Of a stretch of DNA of 11,886 bases, positions 1,335 through 11,597 are shown in pieces; the first letter of the stretch is position 1, and each line of letters begins with the position of its first letter. A program made the position numbers and the translations under genes. The stretch is from assembly GCA_030740295.1 (NCBI GenBank), contig JASLXP010000859.1, forward strand, positions 1 to 11,886, in the 5' to 3' direction. The notes under the pieces are model-generated. The model saw only the letters and a program-made list of their open reading frames with translations. It did not search any database and was not told the origin of the DNA. This DNA comes from Planctomycetota bacterium. Lineage in GTDB: Bacteria > Planctomycetota > PUPC01 > JACPCR01.

Positions 1335-2315
1335 ATGGCCAAGCAGGAAAAAATTCTGGACGAAGTAGTACGCGTCATTCGTGTTAAGCACTATGCAATC
1401 AAGACTGAGCGAGCTTACAAGGGATGGATAGGGAGATATATCAAGTATCACAATATGAAAAGCCGTGAGGACCTCAAGGGCGGCGAAGAAAAGATTCAGG
1501 ATTACCTGACGCATCTCGCGGTCGAAGGAAAGGTCAGCCAGTCCACCCAAAACCAGGCGTTGAATGCTCTGGCCTTTCTGTACAACCAGGTTCTTAAGAC
1601 TCCTCTTGATGACAATATCGATGCAGTTCGGGCACGCAGAAGTCAAAAGGTCCCGGTGGTTCTCACCACCGATGAGGCCGCAAAGATTATTACACTTATG
1701 TCAGGCCCGACGCAGTTGATTGTGAAGCTGCTGTACGGAAGTGGGCTGCGTATTGCAGAGGCGGTCAGACTACGAGTCAAGGATGTTGATTTTGGTATGA
1801 AGGAAATCTTGGTTCGGTCCGGCAAGGGTGATAAGGACCGCGTGACAACTTTATCCGCTGCTGCCGTTCCTTTTCTAACGGAACAGTTGGGTCGGGCCAG
1901 GACACTCCACGAGAATGATCTTCGGGAGGGATACGGCGAAGTATATCTCCCAAACGCGCTTGCCAGGAAGTTCAAGAGTGCTGCCCGTGAATGGACCTGG
2001 CAGTATGTTTTCCCTTCCCGCAGAAGATCTGTCGATCCCCGCAGCGGTAAAGAGGGGCGTCATCACGTGAATGCCAGCGTCGTCAATAAAGCAATCAAGG
2101 TGGCAGCAAGGGAGTCCGGCATTGTGAAAAACATCAGTGCCCACACATTTCGGCACAGCTTTGCCACGCACCTCCTTCAACGGGGAACTGATATCAGAAC
2201 AGTCCAGGCACTACTTGGACATGAATCTGTGACAACAACCATGATCTATACCCACATACTGAATCAAGGCGGTCATGGTGTAGTAAGTCCATTGGACGAT
2301 CTGAATGTTGACTAA
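1335..2315 (+). CDS. intI: Integron-type integrase (tyrosine recombinase, IntI family)
   Basis: A 326-residue site-specific tyrosine recombinase, close to the usual IntI length. The N-terminal SAM-like DNA-binding domain covers about residues 5-95 (ERAYKGWIGRYIKYHN). The catalytic domain follows, with all expected residues: Arg139 in GSGLRIAEA, Lys164 in GKGDKDR, His270 and Arg273 in HTFRHSFATHLL, His296 in LLGHES, and nucleophile Tyr305 in MIYTHIL. Between them, residues about 198-235 (GYGEVYLPNALARKF, then WQYVFPS, SVDPRSG) match the extra segment that separates integron integrases from XerC/D and phage integrases. The tail LNQGGHGVVSPLD is also IntI-like. Integron integrases recombine attC cassette sites with attI; I found no convincing attC array nearby, so it looks solitary. 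Its Shine-Dalgarno is weak and its base composition is more AT-rich than the flanking genes, consistent with transfer. No LexA box is obvious. Confidence 0.93.
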   Translation: MAKQEKILDEVVRVIRVKHYAIKTERAYKGWIGRYIKYHNMKSREDLKGGEEKIQDYLTHLAVEGKVSQSTQNQALNALAFLYNQVLKTPLDDNIDAVRARRSQKVPVVLTTDEAAKIITLMSGPTQLIVKLLYGSGLRIAEAVRLRVKDVDFGMKEILVRSGKGDKDRVTTLSAAAVPFLTEQLGRARTLHENDLREGYGEVYLPNALARKFKSAAREWTWQYVFPSRRRSVDPRSGKEGRHHVNASVVNKAIKVAARESGIVKNISAHTFRHSFATHLLQRGTDIRTVQALLGHESVTTTMIYTHILNQGGHGVVSPLDDLNVD

Positions 2316-2381
2316 AGGATGCAAGGCTTACGTTTTGGGAATCGAACACAGGCCAGTTGAACTCAGGAGCGATAGCGGGGT

Positions 2382-2470
2382 CTTCTGAGAAGCTCGCTGT
2401 GCGATCATGTGCCCTGCAAGCACCGAGTCGCTGTTTGTAAATGGATTGCGTGAGCAGCTTCTGAGAAGCT
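2382..2470. repeat. Pair of CTTCTGAGAAGCT repeats after the integrase
   Basis: The 13-mer CTTCTGAGAAGCT occurs at 2382-2394 and 2458-2470, 76 bp apart. The second copy extends to the perfect inverted repeat AGCTTC-TGA-GAAGCT (2456-2470). Because each copy is itself nearly palindromic, the outer AGAAGCT (2388-2394) and AGCTTCT (2456-2462) can also close a large hairpin of about 75 nt. This lies 67 bp after the integrase stop, where a recombination site might be expected, but the GTTRRRY/RYYYAAC ends of attC are absent. Confidence 0.5.
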
Positions 2471-2501
2471 TTGAGAAGGTATTGGGGCGCTGGGATGTCT
2501 T

Positions 2502-2660
2502 TCAGCTCTCAACACGATGCACAGCAATCCAAGCGCGTCCCCGGCCTCCATTCGTAGCCATTTTGAAGACCGTATGAAGGCCGAGTGTTAGTAATTCAAC
2601 CACGATGAACAGATGCCATAGTCGGATCTGAAATTTCAAGAAATTTTTTTTGAAAAACCG
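2502..2660 (-). pseudogene. Possible relic of an integrase-core (rve/DDE) transposase
   Basis: In one minus-strand frame the text RLWHLFIVVELLTLG, followed by H and later RAWIAV, resembles the beta-strand block of integrase-core transposases. There a typical run is WHLFIVVELGTRR, then a His, then AW. The spacing is a few residues off, no catalytic Asp/Glu triad can be assembled, and the frame upstream passes into a GC-rich palindromic stretch that does not look coding. I read it as a possible small decayed fragment of an insertion sequence in the mobile zone. A chance frame is a real alternative. Confidence 0.25.
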
Positions 2661-2741
2661 GATCTCGTTGTCAAAAAGGTGGGTAACCGATGGGCACACA
2701 CAGGGCGGGCCTGGGGGATATTTACACAGAATCGGCGGGGG

Positions 2742-2768
2742 GACCCTGCGGGGGGATCCCCCGGGGTC
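2742..2768. repeat. Very GC-rich hairpin
   Basis: GACCC (2742-2746) pairs with GGGTC (2764-2768), and CGGGGG (2749-2754) pairs with CCCCCG (2758-2763) around the loop GAT, with a 2-nt bulge. Within it GGGGGATCCCCC is a perfect palindrome. It is followed by TTTCAG rather than a T-run, so it would be at best a weak terminator for plus-strand transcription from the integrase. Confidence 0.45.
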
Positions 2769-2807
2769 TTTCAGAACAACAAAGTATTGGAGGAACTTTT
2801 CCGTTGT

Positions 2808-2828
2808 GTCCATTCTGTCCATTCTGTC
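2808..2828. repeat. Short tandem repeat, unit GTCCATTCT
   Basis: The 9-mer GTCCATTCT is present twice in tandem (2808-2816, 2817-2825), followed by GTC of a third unit. It lies immediately after the stop of the probable integrase tail on the minus strand. Confidence 0.6.
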
Positions 2829-2830
2829 AC

Positions 2831-2997
2831 CTACTCTCCTGCTTTCAGATTGAATCCGCCGGCAACCAGAAGAGAATGCATCGCCGCCTTAATGTGCTGG
2901 GGTAGCTCGCCCCAAGCTTCCACGATTCTGGCCAGTTCCGGGTCTAATTCTGAGCAATCTGGGCAAGCAGACCCCCAAGACGCGCCATAAGTCTTTG
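2831..2997 (-). pseudogene. 3' end of a second, probably phage-type integrase gene (remnant)
   Basis: About 55 codons on the minus strand read TYGASWGSACPDCSELDPE, then LARIVEAWGELPQHIKAAM, HSLLVAGGFN and LKAGE, ending in TAG at 2833-2831. The pattern DPELARIVEAWGELPQHIKAA resembles the short tail that follows the catalytic tyrosine in many phage-like tyrosine recombinases of PVC bacteria (remembered similarity, not a search). The frame stays open upstream to 3193, but there it runs through the antisense of the tRNA fragment, so the catalytic part is missing. I interpret it as the truncated end of an integrase left at an integration junction. Being only a tail, the family call is uncertain; it could be the end of another protein. 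Confidence 0.4.
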
Positions 2998-3016
2998 TAC
3001 CACAAGTGTCAGCCGA

Positions 3017-3062
3017 CGGACTGAAAATCCGCGTGCCGGCGGTTCGATTCCGCCCCTGCCCA
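3017..3062 (+). tRNA. 3' part of tRNA-Phe(GAA), truncated; probable attachment-site remnant
   Basis: The sequence has an anticodon stem-loop (CGGA 3017-3020, loop CTGAAAA 3021-3027 with anticodon GAA at 3023-3025, TCCG 3028-3031), a five-base variable region, and a perfect T-arm (GGCGG 3038-3042, TTCGATT, CCGCC 3050-3054). It ends with a 3' acceptor strand CCTGCCC (3055-3061) and discriminator A3062. The upstream half is not a tRNA: no GGGCAGG acceptor strand or D-arm is found at the right distance (the nearest is GGGCAAG at 2961, too far), and position 3016 breaks the anticodon stem. CCA is not encoded. A 3' tRNA half of this size is what integrases leave at one end of an island that entered a tRNA gene, and a probable integrase tail lies 20 bp away. 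Confidence 0.75.
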
Positions 3063-3067
3063 TTTAT

Positions 3068-3115
3068 AGAACAGCCGTTGAAAATGCCATATGCGGCACT
3101 TTCAACGGCTGTTCT
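3068..3115. repeat. Long perfect inverted repeat directly after the tRNA fragment
   Basis: The arms 3068-3083 (AGAACAGCCGTTGAAA) and 3100-3115 pair perfectly over 16 bp. After one mismatch, TGCC (3085-3088) and GGCA (3095-3098) add four more pairs around the loop ATATGC. No T-run follows on either strand. It begins 5 bp after the tRNA discriminator base, so it is in position to be part of an attachment site or excision-related structure. Confidence 0.8.
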
Positions 3116-3153
3116 CGCGTCTGAAGTATTTGGATTCCAGGCAGACATTGCAG

Positions 3154-3197
3154 GGGTTGGAGTAACGGCTTCAGCCGGGCCCGGACTCGCCATCCGC
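3154..3197. repeat. REP-like dispersed repeat, copy A
   Basis: The copy starts GGGTTGGAGTAACGGCT, holds the hairpin CGGCT-TC-AGCCG, and ends with CGCCATCCGC. It shares these blocks in the same order with copy B, 112 bp further on, differing mainly in the hairpin loop and a few bases. No coding frame seems meaningful here. Confidence 0.7.
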
Positions 3198-3265
3198 TCA
3201 GAGATCCCGGCTCTTGGTGCCGAATCATAAGATCAAACCTGGAGCTTCCAGTCTTGCCGGAGCAA

Positions 3266-3332
3266 GGGTTGGAGTAACGGCTAAATTTAGCCGGGCTCGA
3301 TTCGCCATCCGCATGAAGGCGAAACGGCGGAT
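3266..3332. repeat. REP-like dispersed repeat, copy B with second hairpin
   Basis: The copy starts GGGTTGGAGTAACGGCT like copy A, but its hairpin is the perfect 16-base palindrome CGGCTAAATTTAGCCG (3277-3292). After the shared end CGCCATCCGC (3303-3312), CATCCGC pairs with GCGGATG (3326-3332) to form a second hairpin missing from copy A. A further GGAGTAAC occurs at 3379, 108 bp after the one at 3271, so the core recurs at about 110-bp spacing three times. Confidence 0.65.
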
Positions 3333-3487
3333 GTTTGTTGAGATGGGCAAGCAACACCAGTTCCAAGCGCGGAATTGCGGAGTAACTGGTAGGCCAGATT
3401 TCAACGTTTGCGTGATATCCGACTATCAGCACGTCTGGGGTCGCGGATTCAATGAGATGGGTCTTTTGAACGACTGATGAGCCGCAG

Positions 3488-4513
3488 CTACCGCCGACCT
3501 TGGAGGACGACGCGGAAGCCTAAGCTGTTGAGACGCTGCGAGGGCCTGCCCCTGCCGCGGAAAGCGGAACGGCAGCCCCTGGCATTGGTGAACCAGCTAC
3601 CTCCACGAGACACGCGAAGACTGCCCGTGGCAGGGCCTGCTGGGTCAACAACGGTCTTTGAGGAATAATCCCCATACCAGTCCGAACACCATTCCCACAC
3701 GTTGCCATGCATATCGTAAAGGCCCCAATCGTTGGGCTTCTTCAGCCCGACCGGATGAGCATACTTTTCTCCCGCGACCAACGCATTGCCGTGTAACCAG
3801 GCATAGACTCCCAGGAAGACGGAGTTGTCGTCTTCGCCGTAGCAAAAGCGTGTGGCCGTGCCTGAACGGCATGCGTATTCCCATTGGGCCTCGGTAGGAA
3901 GGGCAAAGGTCGTAGTTTGTAATGCGGGCACTCCGTGACCGCTTTTATCTTGTCGCGGAGCGCCAAGACCACTCAGCTTCTTAAGAAACTCCTGGCAGTC
4001 TTGCCACGAAACGTGAGTCGCGGCATGCCGTGGATTTTCCTTCGTGAAATTATCTGGCTTCCAGCGCTCATCGCCCTTCCATGGCTCGCCCTTCCAGGGC
4101 TCTTTGCCCATGACCTTCTTCCACTCGGCCTGAGTCACCTCGTACTTCCCGATGTAAAAGGGGCGCGAGAGGGTGACCTTATGTTGTGGCTCACTACTAC
4201 TCCCATACTTCTCATTGTCCGGGCCGCCCATCATGAAGGAACCGGCACGGCACAGGACGAGATGGATGCCGGTGACCTTGTGCCGGATCTCAAGGGGAAG
4301 GCCCGAGTCTTTATCGAATCCCAATCGAACGGTGTTGCCGTAAGCGTCTTTGCTCTTCGAAGGAATCTCGAAATCATGAGAAAGCTTGTCCGGAAGTTTG
4401 GATTTCTCGAGACGATTCTCCTCGGCCCGACTGAGAGCTGGACAACAGAACGAGAGCAGTAAAGAAACCCGGGGAAGCAGTCGGTAAGTCATGCCTTCGG
4501 CCACATTTGTCAT
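3488..4513 (-). CDS. Exported FGE/SUMF1-family protein, formylglycine-generating-enzyme-like but lacking one catalytic Cys
   Basis: 341 residues. The N-terminus (MTYRLLPRVSLLLSFCCPAL, then SRA-EEN) reads as a signal peptide, so the protein probably acts outside the cytoplasm. Residues about 85-337 form an FGE-sulfatase (SUMF1) domain: VLCRAGSFMMGG, FYIGKYEVTQAEWKKVM, HVSWQDCQEFLKKL, ALPTEAQWEYACRSG, WGLYDMHGNVWEWCSDWYG and SRGGSWFTNARGCRSAFR. True FGE oxidises a sulfatase cysteine with two active-site Cys five residues apart. Here the first position is Thr309 and only Cys314 remains, so sulfatase activation is unlikely and another FGE-fold role is more likely. The domain contains a duplicated EPWKG. 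The ATG at 4513 lies 3 nt after the doxX-like stop, indicating an operon; the in-frame ATG at 4492 is an alternative start. No sulfatase gene is nearby. Confidence 0.9.
   Translation of the reverse strand: MTNVAEGMTYRLLPRVSLLLSFCCPALSRAEENRLEKSKLPDKLSHDFEIPSKSKDAYGNTVRLGFDKDSGLPLEIRHKVTGIHLVLCRAGSFMMGGPDNEKYGSSSEPQHKVTLSRPFYIGKYEVTQAEWKKVMGKEPWKGEPWKGDERWKPDNFTKENPRHAATHVSWQDCQEFLKKLSGLGAPRQDKSGHGVPALQTTTFALPTEAQWEYACRSGTATRFCYGEDDNSVFLGVYAWLHGNALVAGEKYAHPVGLKKPNDWGLYDMHGNVWEWCSDWYGDYSSKTVVDPAGPATGSLRVSRGGSWFTNARGCRSAFRGRGRPSQRLNSLGFRVVLQGRR
4071..4100. repeat. 15-bp tandem duplication inside the FGE-like gene
   Basis: Two 15-bp units, TCGCCCTTCCATGGC and TCGCCCTTCCAGGGC, lie head to tail with one mismatch. 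On the coding strand they specify the repeated EPWKG within KEPWKGEPWKG, around residues 138-147. The frame is kept. Confidence 0.7.
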
Positions 4514-4516
4514 GTA

Positions 4517-4942
4517 TTATTTATCTTTCTTGTCGAACAACTTCTCATCCAACGAGTGCTTACCAGGACCAATAAGCAACAGACTGAAAAAGAGAATGGC
4601 CGCCTCAAGGGCATGAGAATACTTCACAAATGGATCACCCATATTCAGATGCATCAGGGCGGCTACAACCATTGTGCTAAACAGAAAGAAGCATGCAGGG
4701 CGCGTGAAAAGGCCAAGCACTAATAACAGACCGCCAGCAAATTCAGAGATTGCAGCCATAAAGCCCATGAAGGTTGGCGCAAAACTCACACCCATGGCTG
4801 ACAAAGCTCCACCAAGCTTTGTCCATGCTTCCGTTCCTGCGGCCAGTTTTGGGAATCCATGACACATGAACATTATTCCGATGCCAAACCTCAATATGAG
4901 AAGGCCTATGTCACGTTGTTTGTCGAGTTTGTGAAATATCAT
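4517..4942 (-). CDS. DoxX-family small membrane protein
   Basis: I chose the ATG at 4942, giving 141 residues, because AAAGGAG (4955-4949) lies 6 nt upstream; the frame is open further upstream to 5011, but that extension is polar and has no ribosome site. The protein has four hydrophobic segments: IGLLILRFGIGIMFMCHG, the FAPTFMGFMAAISEFAGG region, LLLVLGLFTRPACFFLFSTM and LEAAILFFSLLLIGPG. Typical DoxX-family motifs are HGFPKL near the end of the first span, EFAGGLLLVLGLFTR and a final GPGKHSLD. DoxX/DoxD-like proteins are integral membrane proteins, in some cases subunits of quinone-linked oxidoreductases, but most have no proven reaction. It is the first gene of a tight minus-strand pair with the FGE-like gene. 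Two 12-bp palindromes about 190 bp upstream may control the pair. Confidence 0.88.
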   Translation of the reverse strand: MIFHKLDKQRDIGLLILRFGIGIMFMCHGFPKLAAGTEAWTKLGGALSAMGVSFAPTFMGFMAAISEFAGGLLLVLGLFTRPACFFLFSTMVVAALMHLNMGDPFVKYSHALEAAILFFSLLLIGPGKHSLDEKLFDKKDK

Positions 4943-4948
4943 GATCTT

Positions 4949-4955
4949 CTCCTTT
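4949..4955 (-). promoter_or_regulatory. Strong Shine-Dalgarno of the doxX-like gene
   Basis: AAAGGAG on the minus strand is spaced 6 nt from the ATG at 4942. It decides this start over the upstream in-frame ATG at 5011. Confidence 0.75.
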
Positions 4956-5127
4956 GCAAATGCTTCGGCTGGGACAAGGGGCTTGCGCCCTTCCCCCTGG
5001 GAACCGGACAAGACAGTTTTCCATCATCCGACTGGAGCACTTGTAAGGCCATGCTCTTTTGAGAGTCAGCGCATCGACATTTGAGCTGAGAAGCGCGAGA
5101 GCCCGGGATGTCATTCATGAGTAGTTG

Positions 5128-5154
5128 CTGAACGTTCAGATACAAGAATTCTTG
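5128..5154. promoter_or_regulatory. Two adjacent perfect 12-bp palindromes, candidate operators
   Basis: CTGAACGTTCAG (5128-5139) and CAAGAATTCTTG (5143-5154) are each perfectly self-complementary and are separated by 3 bp. They lie upstream of the doxX-like gene (minus) and about 50 bp before the promoter-like boxes of the candidate RNA (plus). Symmetric 12-mers like these are typical of dimeric repressor or activator sites. No regulator gene is in the window. Confidence 0.45.
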
Positions 5155-5201
5155 GGCTGTCGGCTGTCCTTTCACTGTTTTTGACTGAAATCGACGACTT
5201 C

Positions 5202-5231
5202 ATTTGACCTGGTCGAATTTGACCTTATGAA
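5202..5231 (+). promoter_or_regulatory. Sigma70-like promoter for the candidate RNA, with a direct repeat
   Basis: TTGACC (5204-5209) and TATGAA (5226-5231) are separated by 16 bp. This fits a housekeeping promoter whose start would fall near 5237-5239, exactly where the predicted RNA fold begins. The spacer contains a second copy of ATTTGACCT (5202-5210 and 5217-5225), which also makes GGTC...GACC symmetry and could be a regulator site. Confidence 0.4.
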
Positions 5232-5236
5232 TTCTT

Positions 5237-5351
5237 GCTCGGCGATCTCACCTCGCTGGCAGGTCGAGGGAGGGTGACCTTCGCCAGGTCCGAAGGCCGA
5301 GCGCCCTCCTCTTGACGGGGAGAATCGGTTTAATCCGATTCTCCCTTTTTT
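5237..5351 (+). ncRNA. Candidate structured RNA with a predicted pseudoknot, ending in an intrinsic terminator
   Basis: Hand folding gives a consistent structure. P1 pairs GCTCGGC (5237-5243) with GCCGAGC (5296-5302). Inside it, CTGGC-AGGTC (5256-5265) pairs with GACCT (5276-5280) and GCCAG (5283-5287) across a 2-nt bulge, closing a 10-base loop. From that loop GGAGGG (5269-5274) can pair with CCCTCC (5304-5309) just after P1, forming a pseudoknot. That same 3' strand can alternatively make an 8-bp stem with 5269-5276, so two states are possible. The terminator at 5318-5351 follows directly, and promoter-like boxes end 6 nt before P1. It could be a free sRNA or a cis leader of the HzsA-like gene that starts 350 bp later. 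I cannot match it to a known family. Part of it (CAGGTCCGAAGG) recalls SRP RNA, but that motif is incomplete. Confidence 0.45.
5318..5351 (+). terminator. Intrinsic terminator
   Basis: A perfect 11-bp stem, GGGAGAATCGG (5318-5328) with CCGATTCTCCC (5335-5345), has the loop TTTAAT and is followed by six T (5346-5351). It acts on plus-strand transcripts. No protein gene ends upstream on this strand, which supports a non-coding transcript in front of it. Confidence 0.88.
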
Positions 5352-5700
5352 ATTCGGCCAGACAAGCATTGGCACTGGTTCTCATCACAGACCGAAAGTC
5401 GCCTCTGGGGGCACGGATTGTTTATTCATTCATGCAGTGTTGCTCGTGATAGTTGCCGACCACTCACACGTGATGGATGTATGCATACACCGCGTGATAT
5501 ATTGAGTTGCTGCGCTCAGCACTCCCCGCGCATCCAGAAGAAACCTCGACGAATTCTTGAGCTATCGTGGGGGCCGGCAGCTTTGCTGCCTCGTGCCGCC
5601 AAGCCGTCAAGTGACATCCTGGCTGCATGTCCCTATGATTCCTGGCCGTGATTTCGTCGAAGTCTGAGGGTCTTGTTCCGCTATGCTGAGGAGGCTGCGA
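5352..5700. other. Intergenic region upstream of the HzsA-like gene
   Basis: I see no convincing gene on either strand. Two symmetric sites are visible: the perfect 12-bp palindrome TGTATGCATACA (5478-5489), a possible operator, and the hairpin GGCAGC-TTT-GCTGCC (5576-5590), which looks like one of the short palindromic repeats of this genome. No clear -35/-10 pair could be chosen by eye. The ribosome site AGGAGG (5689-5694) precedes the ATG at 5701. Confidence 0.5.
5689..5694 (+). promoter_or_regulatory. Ribosome binding site of the HzsA-like gene
   Basis: AGGAGG lies 6 nt before the ATG at 5701. It falls inside the reading frame that begins at ATG 5683, so 5701 is the better start. Confidence 0.75.
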
Positions 5701-8700
5701 ATGTGGAAAACGGAGTTCTTGTTGTTCCCCGCGCTTCTCTTTTGTTGCTCCGGGACGATGCGGGCGCAGCCGTCGCGCGAGCGGATGGCTTACTGGTGGC
5801 TTGATGAGATCCGGACGGCTTCCTTTGCTCTCAGTAAAGCTCGGACCGGGCGTGTGGCGACCTGGCCTCGAATGACGGTGCCGGCAGGCTCCGGGACGCT
5901 TCCGCTTCCCAAAGCGAACGGAGCTGTTGAGATCGACGGGTTGCTTGATGAGCCGGCCTGGCAGCAGGCGACGCGCTTTCCGGTGGGGCCTATATTCGGG
6001 CCTTGGCGTGACGGGCCTTTCTGGCTCATGGTCAGCGCGTGGCGTGACGAGAAGAGAGTTTACCTTGCGGTTCAGTCGGAGCGGAGCCTGACGGACCTTG
6101 GTGCGCTCGTGCAACCGGGGGAGCTGTTTCGCGCGGCAGGCAGGCCGATCTCGATTCACAAGGGGAAAAGCCTGACTGGTGGAGCGGTGAAGGTGGACGG
6201 GCAGAAACACATTCTGGAAATGGTTCTTCCCTTTAGAGGCAAGTCTGTCTCGTTGTCGTTCCCGGTCGAGATCGTACGTCGCAGCGGCGGCAAGCTCCCA
6301 AGTGAGCTGGCCTCTCTCGGGCTGACGAAGCTCGGAAGAGCCGGCAGGCGCTCACGGCGGAGGAGCTCGGTCTGGCTGGAACCCATCGCCGTCAACCTAG
6401 TGCCGTCGGATGCGTCGGCCCAATTGACGTGGCTAACAGAAGCACGGCTGTCGCACGTGCTCGAAGCTAATGGGAAGTCTGTGAGCAAAGGTGAATACCC
6501 GGTGCAGCCCGGCAAGGAAGACGGGGTATCTCGTTTCCACTGGCAGGCAAAGTGGAAGGGGCTTACCTGCCAGCTCGAAGGCTTCCGCTATGTCGAGCCC
6601 GTCGTGAAGAGGCTTGCCGCAGTTCGCGGGATGCATCAGAGATCACCATCCGACAGCGCAGCAGATCCAGCCACAGAAAATCAGGCTGAAGAAATCCAGC
6701 GCATGGAGGAACGGCTGCGAACGATCGTTCCAAATCCTGGAAATCACGGGCGGGACGCCCGTGCCACGATGCCGAAGGATCGCGCCGCGTGGCGTGAGCT
6801 TTACTGCCGGGCGAGAGAAATGCAGTCCGGCGCGCATCTCAGTATGCTCGATGGGCCTCTGCTCTTCGTCAAGAGACACCCTTACTTCGCCGGCCACATC
6901 TACGACGATTACTACACCTGGCGTCCGGGCGGGGGCATCTATGTCTTTGAGAATCCTGACGCTGCTTTCGCTAAGAGGAAAGTGCGGGCGGTCATCGATC
7001 CGAAAACGAAGCCGACTCTTGGTGGCGGCGTCTATCGCGATCCTGAGATTTCCTGGGACGGCAAGCGGGTTCTCTTCGCGTGCAAATCCGATCGAAACGC
7101 TGGTACGAGTATCTACGAAATCGGCGCTGACGGGCACGGCCTTCGCCAGCTCTCCACTCCCGAAAAATTCCATGACATCACGCCCTGTTACCTTCCCGAC
7201 GGGCGTATTGTTTTCACGTCGACCCGCCCGCGCGGGCTCGTCCCTTGTAACAACACCGGGGTGGACAGCCTGCACACGATGAACGCGGACGGCAGCGCGG
7301 TCCGCAGCATTTCTTACAACAACGTCAATGAATTCGACCCGTCCGTGCTGCACGACGGCCGGATCATGTATGGCCGCTGGGAATACGTGGACAAGACGGC
7401 GCTCTACATGCAGAGCCTTTGGACGGTGTTCCCTGACGGAACAAACGAAACCGCGCTGTTTGCCAACAACCTGGCAAAGCCGACGGCCATCCTCGACGCG
7501 CGCCCCGTGCCGGGCACCAATCTCATCGCAGCTTCACTCACGCCGCACAACGGCCAGGCCGCGGGCGCCATCGCCATGATCGATCCGCTGCTGGGCAAGA
7601 ACAATCTGCAGGCCGTCACTAACTTCACACCGGAATACCCCGTCAGGATGGACCAGGGGCTGACCATCGCGCCGTGCGATCCGTGGCCCCTCTCGAAAGA
7701 CGATGTTCTCATCAGTAACAACGCTATCGGGGCCCATGGCATCCTTGAGCTGGTCGACCGCTTCGGCCATCGTGAGCTGGTCTACTGCGACCCGGACCTT
7801 TCATGCTATTCGCCGATGCTGGTCAGACCGCGCCGCGCACCGACAGCGATTCCTGCGGCGGACCCTGCGGACGAGCCGGGACGGTTTCTCCTCCTCGATG
7901 TTTATCGTGGCCTCAAAGGTGTGAAGCGGGGCACGGTCAAACGGCTGCGCGTGATCGAAGAGACCGCGCGCATCAGCCCGGTCCCGCCCGGGGGACGATG
8001 GTGGAATCAGGCTTTCCTCGTCAGTTGGCAGGGCTCTTATGTCGTCAAGAATTTCCTCGGCACGGTACCGGTCTATCCGGATGGCTCGGCACATTTCGAG
8101 GTCCCACCGGGAAGGGCTGTTTACTTTGAAGCGCTGGACGCGGACGGCCGTGAGGTGCAACGGATGCGAACCTTTGTGCAGGCCGTGCCCGGTGTCACAC
8201 GCTCCTGCGTCGGCTGCCACGAAAACAAGATGACGACCACTACGCACACCACCTTCCGACCGATGGCCACGCAGCGACAGCCCTCCGCACTCGAACCGGA
8301 ATCCTGGGGCAGCGGGTACATCGACTATCCCACCATGATTCAACCCATCCTCGACCGCCACTGCGTGCAGTGTCATGGCGGCGAGAAGGGTATCGAAGGC
8401 GGCATCGATCTTTCCGGCGGCTGGACGTGGGCCTTCAACATAAGTTACGAGACCCTCCTCAAGAACAACCTCGCCGGTTACCTGCGCTGCCACAACGGTG
8501 ACGTCACGACTTCTGACATCCTTCCTCCTCGGACGCTTGGCTCCGGCTCTGCGCCACTCGCGGACCTCCTCGTTGACGGACACGATGACCGCCTCCCGGA
8601 TTTGACCCGGCCGGAGCGCGACCTGCTCATGGCCTGGATGGACGGCAACAGCAACTACAACGGAACCTGGAACTACACCCGCCAGGCGACCTGCCGGGCC

Positions 8701-10311
8701 ATCCTCTCTACCGCCTCCCCCCTCTCCGGCGCGATGCAGGCCGCAGGCTGCACGCAGTGCCATACGCCCAGACACATTGGCAACGATTGGGTAAATCTGG
8801 AACACCCCGAATGGAGCCGCGTCCTCCGTGCACCTCTGGCGAAAACCAATGACGGTCCTGGATTGGCCTGGTGCCGCAAGAGAAAGGCAAAGAGCGGCCT
8901 GCCCCTTGTTACCCAACGCCAACTCCCTCCCGACGTGTTTCGCCCTCCCCACTGGCCGGAGAGAGACCCGTCCGGAGAAGTGCACACGACCTTTGCTTCG
9001 ACCAGCGACGAACACTATCAGGCGATCCTGAAGATCATCCGGAAAGCGAGAAACCAAGCCCTGGCCAGCCCCCGCGTCGATATGCCGGGAGCGGAAGTGA
9101 CGGCGGGCGCGCGCCGGCTGCAGATACCGATGCCCCTGCCCGATCCACTGCCTGTTCTGAAGGCCAGCCTGACGGACGACGCGGTGAAGCTTTCCTGGCC
9201 TCGAACCGCAGAGACCCTCGGTATGCAGTTCATACTCTACCGATCCGCTGAGGCCGATTTCGCGCCGGATGACAAGGCCCTCCTCGCTGAGACTACGCTC
9301 TTTCAATACACGGATACAGTCGCACCGGAGGGAACGCAGCACTACGCGCTGGTGCTGTTGTCCGGTGCCGAGCGCAGCAAGCCAATCCGTACGAGCATCA
9401 AGATACCCCGTCCATCGCCGCCGCCCGTACCTGCGGGTCTTGCCGCCAGACCTGGCCCCGGACAGGTGGTTCTGTCGTGGACATCTTCCGGAAAGTCCCG
9501 GCTTCGCTTCAACGTCTATCGCGCCAGGACCGGCTCGAAAACTTTCAGAAAGATCAACGAGGAACCTCTGCTGGCCTCGTCATTCGTGGATGCCGAAGTT
9601 GAGAAGGGTGTGAAGCATGATTTCACGGTCCGCGCGCTGAGCCGCCGTGGTGTGTTGAGCGAACCCGCGTCTCACGTCACCGCTGCTCCTCTGCCCGAGA
9701 TCAAAGCCCCGGTATTCACTGCCCTCTTCAGCGAAGATACTGACGGCAAGCTGGTCGACGGTTCGCTCCTCAAAGGCCGACGTCACGGCAAAGCGAAACT
9801 GACGGAGAAGTCGCTCGACCTTCGCCAGGGAGGACACGTGACTTTTGCACACCGGCAGGAATTCGATCTCAACCCGCGCCTGTCCATCGAATGCCGAATC
9901 TACTTCGACGAAGCCGGCCAGATGCCGGTCATAATCAGTTGTGGTCGATGGCGCGGCACCGGCTGGTTCCTGCAGCGCATCGGCGCCGGTTGGCGGTGGC
10001 ATGTGGGAGGTGTCGACTGTGACGGCGGCAAGGTCAAGCCCGGCCAATGGATCCACGTGGTCGCCACCTTCGACGGCCGTCACGCCCGCGTGTTCCAAAA
10101 CGGCATCCAGGTCGCCTCTAAGCCCTGCAAGCCGAACCTCACCCCCTGGTCCGGCCCGCTCTTCATCGGACAGTACGGCCCAACACCGTCTCCGCCGTAC
10201 CAGGTAAAAGGCCGTATCCGTGACGTGAAAATCTACCGGCGGGCCATCTCCGCGAGCGAAGTCCGTGGTAACTCAGCCAAGCCGTTGCCCAAAGGCTCTC
10301 CAGTTCCTTGA
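5701..10311 (+). CDS. Large secreted HzsA-related multihaem cytochrome with CBM9-like, propeller, FN3-like and LamG-like modules
   Basis: 1536 residues from ATG 5701 (ATG 5683 would add six). A signal peptide (MWKTEFLLFPALLFCCSGTM, then RAQ) directs export. Residues about 65-110 look CBM9/DOMON-like (EIDGLLDEPAWQQA). About 385-720 is a TolB/PD40-type beta-propeller (ISWDGKRVLFACKS, YLPDGRIVFTSTRPRG) of the kind in hydrazine synthase alpha, and the following region also follows the HzsA-like pattern. Three CxxCH c-type haem sites are present: CVGCH (836-840), CVQCH (888-892) and CTQCH (1017-1021). Then come two FN3-like repeats (about 1153-1235 and 1244-1331) and a LamG/concanavalin-like domain (about 1340-1524: WIHVVATFDGRHARVFQNG). 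True HzsA is about 800 residues with two haems and works with HzsB and HzsC, which are absent here, so hydrazine synthesis is not implied. A periplasmic or surface redox role is inferred. Residues 348-356 (NHGRDARAT) come from an in-frame palindromic repeat. No operon partner is adjacent. Confidence 0.9.
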   Translation: MWKTEFLLFPALLFCCSGTMRAQPSRERMAYWWLDEIRTASFALSKARTGRVATWPRMTVPAGSGTLPLPKANGAVEIDGLLDEPAWQQATRFPVGPIFGPWRDGPFWLMVSAWRDEKRVYLAVQSERSLTDLGALVQPGELFRAAGRPISIHKGKSLTGGAVKVDGQKHILEMVLPFRGKSVSLSFPVEIVRRSGGKLPSELASLGLTKLGRAGRRSRRRSSVWLEPIAVNLVPSDASAQLTWLTEARLSHVLEANGKSVSKGEYPVQPGKEDGVSRFHWQAKWKGLTCQLEGFRYVEPVVKRLAAVRGMHQRSPSDSAADPATENQAEEIQRMEERLRTIVPNPGNHGRDARATMPKDRAAWRELYCRAREMQSGAHLSMLDGPLLFVKRHPYFAGHIYDDYYTWRPGGGIYVFENPDAAFAKRKVRAVIDPKTKPTLGGGVYRDPEISWDGKRVLFACKSDRNAGTSIYEIGADGHGLRQLSTPEKFHDITPCYLPDGRIVFTSTRPRGLVPCNNTGVDSLHTMNADGSAVRSISYNNVNEFDPSVLHDGRIMYGRWEYVDKTALYMQSLWTVFPDGTNETALFANNLAKPTAILDARPVPGTNLIAASLTPHNGQAAGAIAMIDPLLGKNNLQAVTNFTPEYPVRMDQGLTIAPCDPWPLSKDDVLISNNAIGAHGILELVDRFGHRELVYCDPDLSCYSPMLVRPRRAPTAIPAADPADEPGRFLLLDVYRGLKGVKRGTVKRLRVIEETARISPVPPGGRWWNQAFLVSWQGSYVVKNFLGTVPVYPDGSAHFEVPPGRAVYFEALDADGREVQRMRTFVQAVPGVTRSCVGCHENKMTTTTHTTFRPMATQRQPSALEPESWGSGYIDYPTMIQPILDRHCVQCHGGEKGIEGGIDLSGGWTWAFNISYETLLKNNLAGYLRCHNGDVTTSDILPPRTLGSGSAPLADLLVDGHDDRLPDLTRPERDLLMAWMDGNSNYNGTWNYTRQATCRAILSTASPLSGAMQAAGCTQCHTPRHIGNDWVNLEHPEWSRVLRAPLAKTNDGPGLAWCRKRKAKSGLPLVTQRQLPPDVFRPPHWPERDPSGEVHTTFASTSDEHYQAILKIIRKARNQALASPRVDMPGAEVTAGARRLQIPMPLPDPLPVLKASLTDDAVKLSWPRTAETLGMQFILYRSAEADFAPDDKALLAETTLFQYTDTVAPEGTQHYALVLLSGAERSKPIRTSIKIPRPSPPPVPAGLAARPGPGQVVLSWTSSGKSRLRFNVYRARTGSKTFRKINEEPLLASSFVDAEVEKGVKHDFTVRALSRRGVLSEPASHVTAAPLPEIKAPVFTALFSEDTDGKLVDGSLLKGRRHGKAKLTEKSLDLRQGGHVTFAHRQEFDLNPRLSIECRIYFDEAGQMPVIISCGRWRGTGWFLQRIGAGWRWHVGGVDCDGGKVKPGQWIHVVATFDGRHARVFQNGIQVASKPCKPNLTPWSGPLFIGQYGPTPSPPYQVKGRIRDVKIYRRAISASEVRGNSAKPLPKGSPVP
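6745..6768 (+). repeat. In-frame palindromic repeat encoding HGRDARAT
   Basis: CACGGGCG (6745-6752) and CGCCCGTG (6756-6763) form a perfect 8-bp stem around GGA, followed by CCACG. This string is a familiar dispersed palindromic repeat of Verrucomicrobia- and Planctomycetes-type genomes (recalled, not searched). Here it lies in the linker between the N-terminal module and the propeller, and is translated without breaking the frame. Confidence 0.65.
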
Positions 10312-10355: not shown

Positions 10356-11597
10356 TCAGAAATTCTTACCCATCCCTTCGCCGCCAATCTGGAAGAGACG
10401 GCCTTCTCCCGGAGCAAGGGCGACGAGTTGAGCCTTGGCGTTCGGCGGCCATAGCTCTCTGATTATTCGGTCACGCGGATCGACGTGATAGAGCTTTTCG
10501 TCTTTGACATTTACCTCGACCGTGACTCGCGCCCAATCGCATGGGTTGGCATTCACTATCATCAAGTAACGCTGGTTGTCTTCATCGAGGAAGAGACCGG
10601 CGGTCACCTGGTCTCCCTTGACATCCACACTGAGATGCTCGCCGCTCTTCGGGAGATTACGTGTGCCGTTCCAGAGCGTGCCGTTGTGGAAGACGCCGAC
10701 GTTTCGGAGACGCCGAAGCACGGGCGCCAAAGTGTGGATTTCGGTATTGATCGCTTTGGCGATCTCCCACGTCTCGGTGGTTGAGCCGTCGGGTCTGACC
10801 ATGGCCTGGTCATGAGCGTAGGTAAAGTACTGCAGGCCCTTCGCACCGTAGGCCAGATCGTTGAAAAGCTGAAAACGCATGTGCCCTTCGGTCGGCGTTG
10901 GGTAAGCGCCGTGTCGCACGGCACACGTGAATGCCCAGAAGGGGATGTCGTAGAAGTTGGACAGGCTTCGCACCAGGTCGAGGCACTCAAAGTAATCGGG
11001 CTTCACAATGATCTTGTGATCGGCAAAAACATTCGGCAGTGCGCGTCCCTCCTCGACATCGGCCTCCGTTCCGATCGTGATCGGATAGTGGTCGTAACTC
11101 AGCATCTGCGGTCTGGTCATTCGGATGTACTCCCGCCAGAACCATTCCACGGTGACTGCTCCCCACCCCCGGATGGGAGGGAAGTGGTTGATATAGATCA
11201 GGTGATACGGATCGAGGGTGCGGATGTAATCGGCGACCTCAGCCAATATGGACAGCGCGTCGAAGTGCGGCTCATCGCGCAGGTGGTAGCCATAAAGGCC
11301 GGGATGCTCTCGCACCTTATCGACCAGACGTTTGATCTGTTTCTTACGATTCGCGGTGAGCTTGAAATCGTTCCCAACGTGATAGGTTGAATGTCCCAGC
11401 AGCAGTCTCACCCCGTGGGTGTGCGCAATGTCCAGCGCCCTGACGACTGCTGGAAGTTTCGAATCGGGTGAGGAATGACTGATCGTAAAGCCCGCCTCAG
11501 CCATGCCGGCCATGACATCATCGCGAATCAGATCCCCGCCGGGACCCGCCCAGCCGACGATCGGGAATGCCTCTTCATCCAGGATATTCTCAGCCAT
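10356..11597 (-). CDS. Glycoside-hydrolase-like TIM-barrel protein, cytoplasmic
   Basis: 413 residues. The start is secure: GAGGAG (11611-11606) lies 8 nt before ATG 11597, and an in-frame TGA lies five codons upstream, so no signal peptide can be added. The sequence reads as a (beta/alpha)8 barrel: FPIVGWAGPGG opening, AEAGFTISHSS, HGVRLLLGHS, HPGLYGYHLRDEP with Glu109 in the place of an acid/base residue, MLSYDHYPI, IPFWAFTCAVRHG, and GHMRFQLFNDLAYGAKGLQYFTYA, the last being a hallmark of beta-galactosidase-like and related hydrolases. Residues about 315-405 resemble a C-terminal beta-sandwich (LFLDEDNQRYLMIVN, APGEGRLFQIG). I cannot assign a GH family or substrate, and the nucleophile is not certain. 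Related proteins are often exported, so the lack of a leader is notable. It converges with the HzsA-like gene across a 44-bp gap with no clear terminator. Confidence 0.82.
   Translation of the reverse strand: MAENILDEEAFPIVGWAGPGGDLIRDDVMAGMAEAGFTISHSSPDSKLPAVVRALDIAHTHGVRLLLGHSTYHVGNDFKLTANRKKQIKRLVDKVREHPGLYGYHLRDEPHFDALSILAEVADYIRTLDPYHLIYINHFPPIRGWGAVTVEWFWREYIRMTRPQMLSYDHYPITIGTEADVEEGRALPNVFADHKIIVKPDYFECLDLVRSLSNFYDIPFWAFTCAVRHGAYPTPTEGHMRFQLFNDLAYGAKGLQYFTYAHDQAMVRPDGSTTETWEIAKAINTEIHTLAPVLRRLRNVGVFHNGTLWNGTRNLPKSGEHLSVDVKGDQVTAGLFLDEDNQRYLMIVNANPCDWARVTVEVNVKDEKLYHVDPRDRIIRELWPPNAKAQLVALAPGEGRLFQIGGEGMGKNF

Follow-up and report, generated by a model that had tools for sequence, protein, structure and literature searches.

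We propose that positions 5237–5351 of the window, as we call the whole 11,886-nucleotide stretch of DNA analysed here, may encode an independently terminated, non-coding and lineage-specific small RNA of about 115 nt. It would be read from the plus strand of the intergenic region between a DoxX-family gene and a hydrazine-synthase-alpha-like (HzsA-like) gene. We put the probability of this reading at roughly 45%. A strong intrinsic terminator and several long pairings are present in the DNA, and no relative appeared in what we searched. The stretch is neither a demonstrated pseudoknot nor a supported riboswitch, and it gives no strong grounds for announcing a new class of RNA. The features on which the argument turns are the following.

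4517–5011, minus strand: open reading frame of a DoxX family protein, the divergent neighbour
5204–5231, plus strand: promoter-like site TTGACC-16-TATGAA, a weak match (9/12)
5237–5351, plus strand: candidate RNA stretch, intergenic between the DoxX-family gene and the hydrazine-synthase-alpha-like gene
5237–5245/5253–5260, plus strand: 5' hairpin of the minimum-energy fold, whose 5' arm alternatively forms the outer stem P1
5263–5276/5302–5316, plus strand: long hairpin of the minimum-energy fold
5317–5351, plus strand: intrinsic terminator, with stem 5317–5328/5335–5346, a 6-nt loop and a T run at 5346–5351
5611–5639, plus strand: promoter-like site GTGACA-17-TATGAT (10/12), past the terminator and ahead of the large gene
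5683–10311, plus strand: large downstream gene, whose protein has an HZS_alpha middle domain and, at its C terminus, a LamG-like domain

The lengths of many listed homologues (138–145 aa) suggest that the DoxX-family gene starts near 4939, and the HzsA-like gene likely starts at 5701, with GAGGAGG at 5688–5694. Proteins that equal or nearly equal those encoded here appear under the sources jgi and ena, and the window is therefore probably a metagenome contig. The closest relative of the HzsA-like protein, itself aside, is 65% identical, and relatives are found in genomes of Planctomycetes, Verrucomicrobia, Lentisphaerae, Kiritimatiellae, Armatimonadetes and others (80 kept of 128 loci). Farther out, the window encodes an integron integrase at 1335–2315 on the plus strand (TIGR02249, 431.1 bits, cut-off 265) and, at 10359–11597 on the minus strand, a protein of 413 aa that matches nothing in Pfam or NCBIfam. 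The latter has many homologues of similar length, the best full-length one 77% identical; the names that their sources give include Planctomycetes, Verrucomicrobiota, Latescibacterota and Chloroflexi.

Between the integrase and the DoxX-family gene, the stretch 3010–3115 resembles by eye the 3' half of a tRNA, with a T-arm-like GGCGGTTCGATTCCGCC at 3038–3054; ARAGORN found no tRNA. A 16-bp perfect inverted repeat follows the tRNA-like part (3068–3115). Beyond it, GCA(G/A)GGGTTGGAGTAACGGCT occurs at 3150–3170 and again at 3262–3282, 112 nt apart, each copy overlapping a short inverted GGCT...AGCC in a manner that is REP- or attC-like.

The most solid element of the candidate is its terminator. 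An intrinsic terminator is defined as a G-C-containing stem-loop directly before a U run, and 5317–5351 has this form: the stem comprises 12 pairs, 11 of them Watson–Crick (5318–5345) and one G–U, and its T run lies on the plus strand only. We scanned both strands for perfect stems of 9 or more followed by 5 or more T among the next 7 bases: the window holds a single such site, whereas 100 shuffled windows averaged 0.01. The stem itself was equalled in stability by none of 300 shuffles (z −5.78). Under a loose criterion terminator-like sites are not enriched, whether in 4500–5800 (1 against a mean of 1.4) or across the whole window (12 against 11.0 in shuffles). With loose sites as frequent as in shuffles, what matters at 5317–5351 is how good the terminator is. 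The sequence-only reading had reported this stem and T run, and both are in place and beyond chance at the stringent setting.

These counts also bear on the most deflationary explanation, that a GC-rich stretch happens to lie beside a fortuitous hairpin and is neither transcribed nor selected. The ordinary number of loose sites fits such an accident, as do the weak promoter and the lack of a homologue in anything searched, but a stringent terminator found once where 0.01 is the mean does not, and we regard chance as very improbable.

No evident gene needs this terminator, because the plus-strand frames scanned between the end of the integrase (2315) and 5237 gave no Pfam match; nor did those scanned in 2679–5446. 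The earlier observation that no protein gene accounts for the terminator therefore stands for the scanned frames. Immediately ahead of it lies a GC island, with 68.8% G+C over 5237–5316 against 46.0% in 5011–5236 and 54.4% in 5352–5682. GC richness of an intergenic stretch is a recognised hint of structured RNA. Together with the stringent terminator and the long hairpin described below, the GC island and the lack of a Pfam match in the scanned frames make a small RNA plausible. Set against it are a promoter match that is not significant, the lack of a homologue and of an Rfam family, and the unexceptional stability of 5237–5310.

The main rival to a small RNA is that the terminator alone has a function, that of ending or blocking other transcription. 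The terminator would close a longer unannotated or pervasive plus-strand transcript, or insulate the downstream gene, while the GC-rich stretch before it would be unselected. Such a terminator would explain why 5237–5310 is no more stable than its shuffles, and it sits comfortably with the poor promoter and with the fact that no conservation was found. It leaves the GC island unexplained, as well as a long hairpin whose stability was matched in just 2 of 300 shuffles, and it lacks an obvious client among the scanned plus-strand frames of 2315–5237. We consider it possible but doubtful.

The candidate had been credited with its own promoter boxes, and the letters and the 16-bp spacing are indeed there: TTGACC occupies 5204–5209 and TATGAA 5226–5231, and no other site on the plus strand of 5011–5316 matches as well. 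The match is not significant, since one as good arose in 199 of 1000 shuffles of 5011–5316 (about one in five) and in 13.4% of 3000 shuffles of 5181–5240. For the site at 5611–5639, shuffles of 5351–5700 provide the measure: 242 of 1000 held a match of at least 9/12, and matches of at least 10/12 averaged 0.031 per shuffle. A separate promoter-like site for the downstream gene plausibly counts in favour of the small RNA.

A short repeat, GAATTCTTG, recurs three times on the plus strand of the same intergenic region. Its first copy (5146–5154) lies inside a perfect 12-bp palindrome, CAAGAATTCTTG (5143–5154); the second (5229–5237) spans the proposed −10 box and the first base of the RNA; and the third (5551–5559) precedes the promoter-like site at 5611 by about 50 nt. 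Any 9-mer was present three times in 13 of 5000 shuffles of 4944–5700, and with one mismatch allowed the window holds 11 matches to GAATTCTTG against a mean of 3.24, a number reached in none of 200 shuffles. The repeats could possibly be the operator of a dimeric regulator.

The helices first drawn for the candidate are all present as pairings. The 7-bp outer stem, P1 (5237–5243/5296–5302), is Watson–Crick at 7/7 positions, and the 10-bp inner stem with a bulge, P2, is found at 5256–5265/5276–5287, its 2-nt bulge at 5281–5282. The pairing between the loop and the tail (5269–5274/5304–5309) is likewise Watson–Crick at 6/6 positions, and was taken to form a pseudoknot that competes with an 8-bp alternative stem.

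Energies point to a different fold. The minimum-energy structure of 5237–5351 (−62.8 kcal/mol) consists of the 5' hairpin, the long hairpin and the terminator. The long hairpin (5263–5316) has 14 pairs, two of them G–U, with a bulged base at 5310 and an inner stem at 5278–5283/5291–5296. The six loop-tail pairs are exactly six pairs of this hairpin. Because they are identical to its core, the pseudoknot and the competing stem are one pairing seen twice. A pseudoknot call can arise in just this way, when a pairing at the heart of a plain hairpin, as the loop-tail pairs are here, is counted twice.

Could P1, P2 and the loop-tail helix nonetheless coexist, as a pseudoknotted RNA would require? 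All 23 pairs are Watson–Crick, and sets of at least 23 were reached in just 7 of 12000 shuffles of 5237–5316, a count to be read with the architecture having been chosen after seeing it. The best of the window's 1182 real 80-nt tiles, at positions 9301 and 9321 within the large gene, held 21 pairs. Energetically, P1 with P2 (−27.6 kcal/mol) is less stable than the unknotted alternatives of both 5237–5310 (−32.2) and 5237–5316 (−39.2). P1, P2 and the terminator together reach −49.6 kcal/mol against the full-length minimum, and since the loop-tail duplex adds at most −10.3 kcal/mol before any knotting penalty, the gap to −62.8 stays. P2 is doubtful even before the tail appears: in a pseudoknot-free model of 5237–5303 alone, its pair 5258–5285 has a probability of 0.18, whereas the P1 pair 5240–5299 has 0.9999. 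As the loop-tail pairs are the hairpin core, they contribute no extra signal. The six pairs therefore exist while the knot built on them is unsupported, and we hold a pseudoknotted RNA to be most unlikely.

Comparison with shuffles locates the unusual stability. The whole of 5237–5351 is extreme (z −5.08, 0 of 200 shuffles as stable; z −5.65, 0 of 300 in a repeat), which is owed mostly to the terminator. Without it, 5237–5310 is unremarkable (z −0.22, 70 of 200 shuffles as stable; z −0.24, 108 of 300 in a repeat) and 5237–5316 only mildly unusual (z −1.82, 13 of 300), while the long hairpin alone has a z of −2.97. What had been presented as four independent signals is not confirmed as such: the terminator is solid; the promoter, the stability of 5237–5310 and the pseudoknot are not independent or not significant.

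P1 likely forms only before the tail is made. In the full-length molecule the pseudoknot-free model gives the long-hairpin pair 5272–5306 a probability of 0.99996 and the P1 pair 5240–5299 one of 4e-6. In a series of increasing chain lengths, P1 is predicted for ends near 5303–5308, the core of the long hairpin appears at 5312, and the hairpin is complete from 5316. For chains ending at 5332–5336 the best fold combines P1 with a pairing of the tail to the terminator arm (5303–5311 with 5317–5322 and 5327–5329), at −41.5 against −40.8 kcal/mol, a difference of 0.7. From 5340 onward the long hairpin stands beside a growing terminator. During synthesis, then, the 5' arm would pair with 5296–5302 as P1 and later yield to the long hairpin. 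The 3' part of the putative RNA would be a 14-pair imperfect hairpin followed at once by a constitutive intrinsic terminator. We infer this folding order, as well as transcription, the start position and any function.

The succession of partners invites another explanation, that the stretch is a leader or attenuator of the HzsA-like gene in which a metabolite or protein selects between P1/P2 and the long hairpin, leaving the tail CCCUCCUC (5304–5311) either hidden or paired with the 5' arm of the terminator. The tail does have several mutually exclusive partners, and its brief pairing with the terminator 5' arm at chain ends 5332–5336 is predicted with P1 kept. Nor need the gap to the gene be disqualifying, since PMC8632094 places a published riboswitch candidate, the potE motif, some 200 nt from its own gene.

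Three results weaken the leader. First, in equilibrium folding the best terminator-free folds reach −41.5 and −40.8 kcal/mol against −62.8, which leaves the completed terminator ahead of every alternative found by roughly 21 kcal/mol; no terminator-preventing structure prevails at equilibrium, and the alternative pairing at 5332–5336 is predicted to be brief. Second, the gene starts about 350 nt past the terminator, with the 10/12 promoter-like site in between. Third, a comparable sense-strand terminator within up to 700 nt upstream of an in-frame start was found in 0 of 71 related loci, which are distant relatives, so that a leader confined to this lineage would escape the comparison. Of 80 fetched loci, 9 were set aside because their upstream DNA fell short of 300 nt or an in-frame start was lacking, and the window was recovered as a control. 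The 80 loci also gave no significant sequence or model match. In these loci, then, the candidate shows no conserved link to the gene downstream.

Given the lead of the terminator and the lack of a comparable one at the 71 loci, the RNA is unlikely to be a sensor for the hydrazine-synthase-alpha-like gene, and we rate the sensing leader, one of two options first offered, as improbable. Far less credible again is a new class of co-transcriptional switch, in which P1 would form first and CCCUCCUC would then pick the P2 loop (making a true pseudoknot), the long hairpin or the terminator 5' arm, a ligand or protein acting at that moment to set termination before the hydrazine-synthase-alpha-like gene.

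With the same energy gap, intervening promoter-like site and 0 of 71 loci in view, the stretch is read most simply as a small RNA that ends in a constitutive terminator. A free small RNA was the other option, and it is the better of the two: a terminated plus-strand transcript without a recognisable protein gene is plausible. If the candidate acts at all, its role would most likely be that of an ordinary regulatory small RNA; its terminator would also keep small-RNA transcription from entering the downstream gene.

Searches for relatives drew a blank. An Rfam scan (release 15) had been proposed as a check, and no family matched anywhere in the window at its gathering score. In 5000–5500, five sub-threshold matches appeared at E ≤5, of which two overlap 5237–5351: Atu_C4 (RF02499) on the plus strand at 5286–5357 (21.5 bits, E 0.081, gathering score 80) and Clostridiales-2 on the minus strand at 5274–5353 (19.5 bits, gathering score 58.6).

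DNA searches gave chance-level matches only in the 80 related HzsA-like loci, no match in plasmids and phages, and none in viral contigs for two exact patterns. Across genomes, matches occurred in 4 of 17 at E ≤0.1 (7 matches), in 2 of 387 and 2 of 46 at E ≤0.001, and in 0 of 343 at E ≤0.0001. We take the 11 genome matches to be chance matches to coding DNA, since all lie in open frames of 149–977 aa and none is followed by TTTTT in the next 60 bases.

Passages of PMC2864571 describe the search for structured RNA as joining conserved sequence with secondary-structure evidence such as covariation, and PMC8632094 calls covariation strongly indicative of structure and too little of it a reason for lower confidence in rare motifs. 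We built two covariance models, each from one sequence given twice: R1 from the P1 and P2 first drawn, and R2 from the minimum-energy fold. R1 found nothing in 240 genomes at E ≤0.01, nor in 343, 183 and 179 genomes at E ≤0.001, and R2 nothing in 240 genomes at E ≤0.001. In the window and the 80 loci the best non-self matches scored 21.2 bits (R1, E 0.093) and 15.5 bits (R2, E 3.9), while the window itself, the sole positive control, scored 116.3 and 111.8 bits. The genome draws overlap, and the larger searches used stricter filters. These negatives are weak, resting as they do on single-sequence models, such filters and genomes none of which is known to hold the RNA.

Several other identities were tried and set aside. 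Pairing of the RNA with the downstream ribosome-binding site, through a tail CCUCCUC complementary to GAGGAGG, is undistinguished, with 1175 of 1369 other stretches equal or better against 5237–5316. As to a coding remnant, the short frames scanned around 5237–5351 had no Pfam match and the two scanned through it had no PHROGs match. Neither 4.5S RNA nor the glutamine riboswitches are among the Rfam matches of 5000–5500. Integron attC sites are flanked by RYYYAAC and GTTRRRY; with 35–120 bases between such flanks, neither strand of the window has a match. A group II intron fragment was considered because of a domain 5-like hairpin at 5002–5033 on the minus strand (Plastid-petD, 29.1 bits, E 0.00032, below the gathering score of 65.5; Intron_gpII, 16.4 bits, E 0.83), but it leaves 5237–5351 unexplained. 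That hairpin may be a decayed intron end lying upstream of the DoxX gene, or it may have arisen by chance.

How does the candidate compare with known systems? The fluoride/crcB and ZMP/pfl riboswitches are pseudoknotted transcriptional riboswitches followed by a terminator. A helix with a loop-tail pairing before a terminator recalls them, in the first drawing only; the five Rfam matches at E ≤5 in 5000–5500 include neither of them, the terminator here has no effective competition at equilibrium, and an ordinary hairpin accounts for the loop-tail pairs. The weak likeness to Atu_C4, a small RNA of Rhizobiales, apparently comes from the stem and U tract of the terminator, whereas two pairs of Atu_C4's first hairpin are non-standard here, and the candidate is not a member. 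Intergenic bacterial small RNAs that end in an intrinsic terminator form a general class. Although no named family matches, the putative RNA resembles that class in being intergenic, GC-rich, about 100 nt long and built of hairpins that end in a stem and U tract. If transcribed, it would be one more lineage-specific small RNA, from an uncultured bacterium with gene relatives mainly among Planctomycetes, Verrucomicrobia, Lentisphaerae and neighbouring groups.
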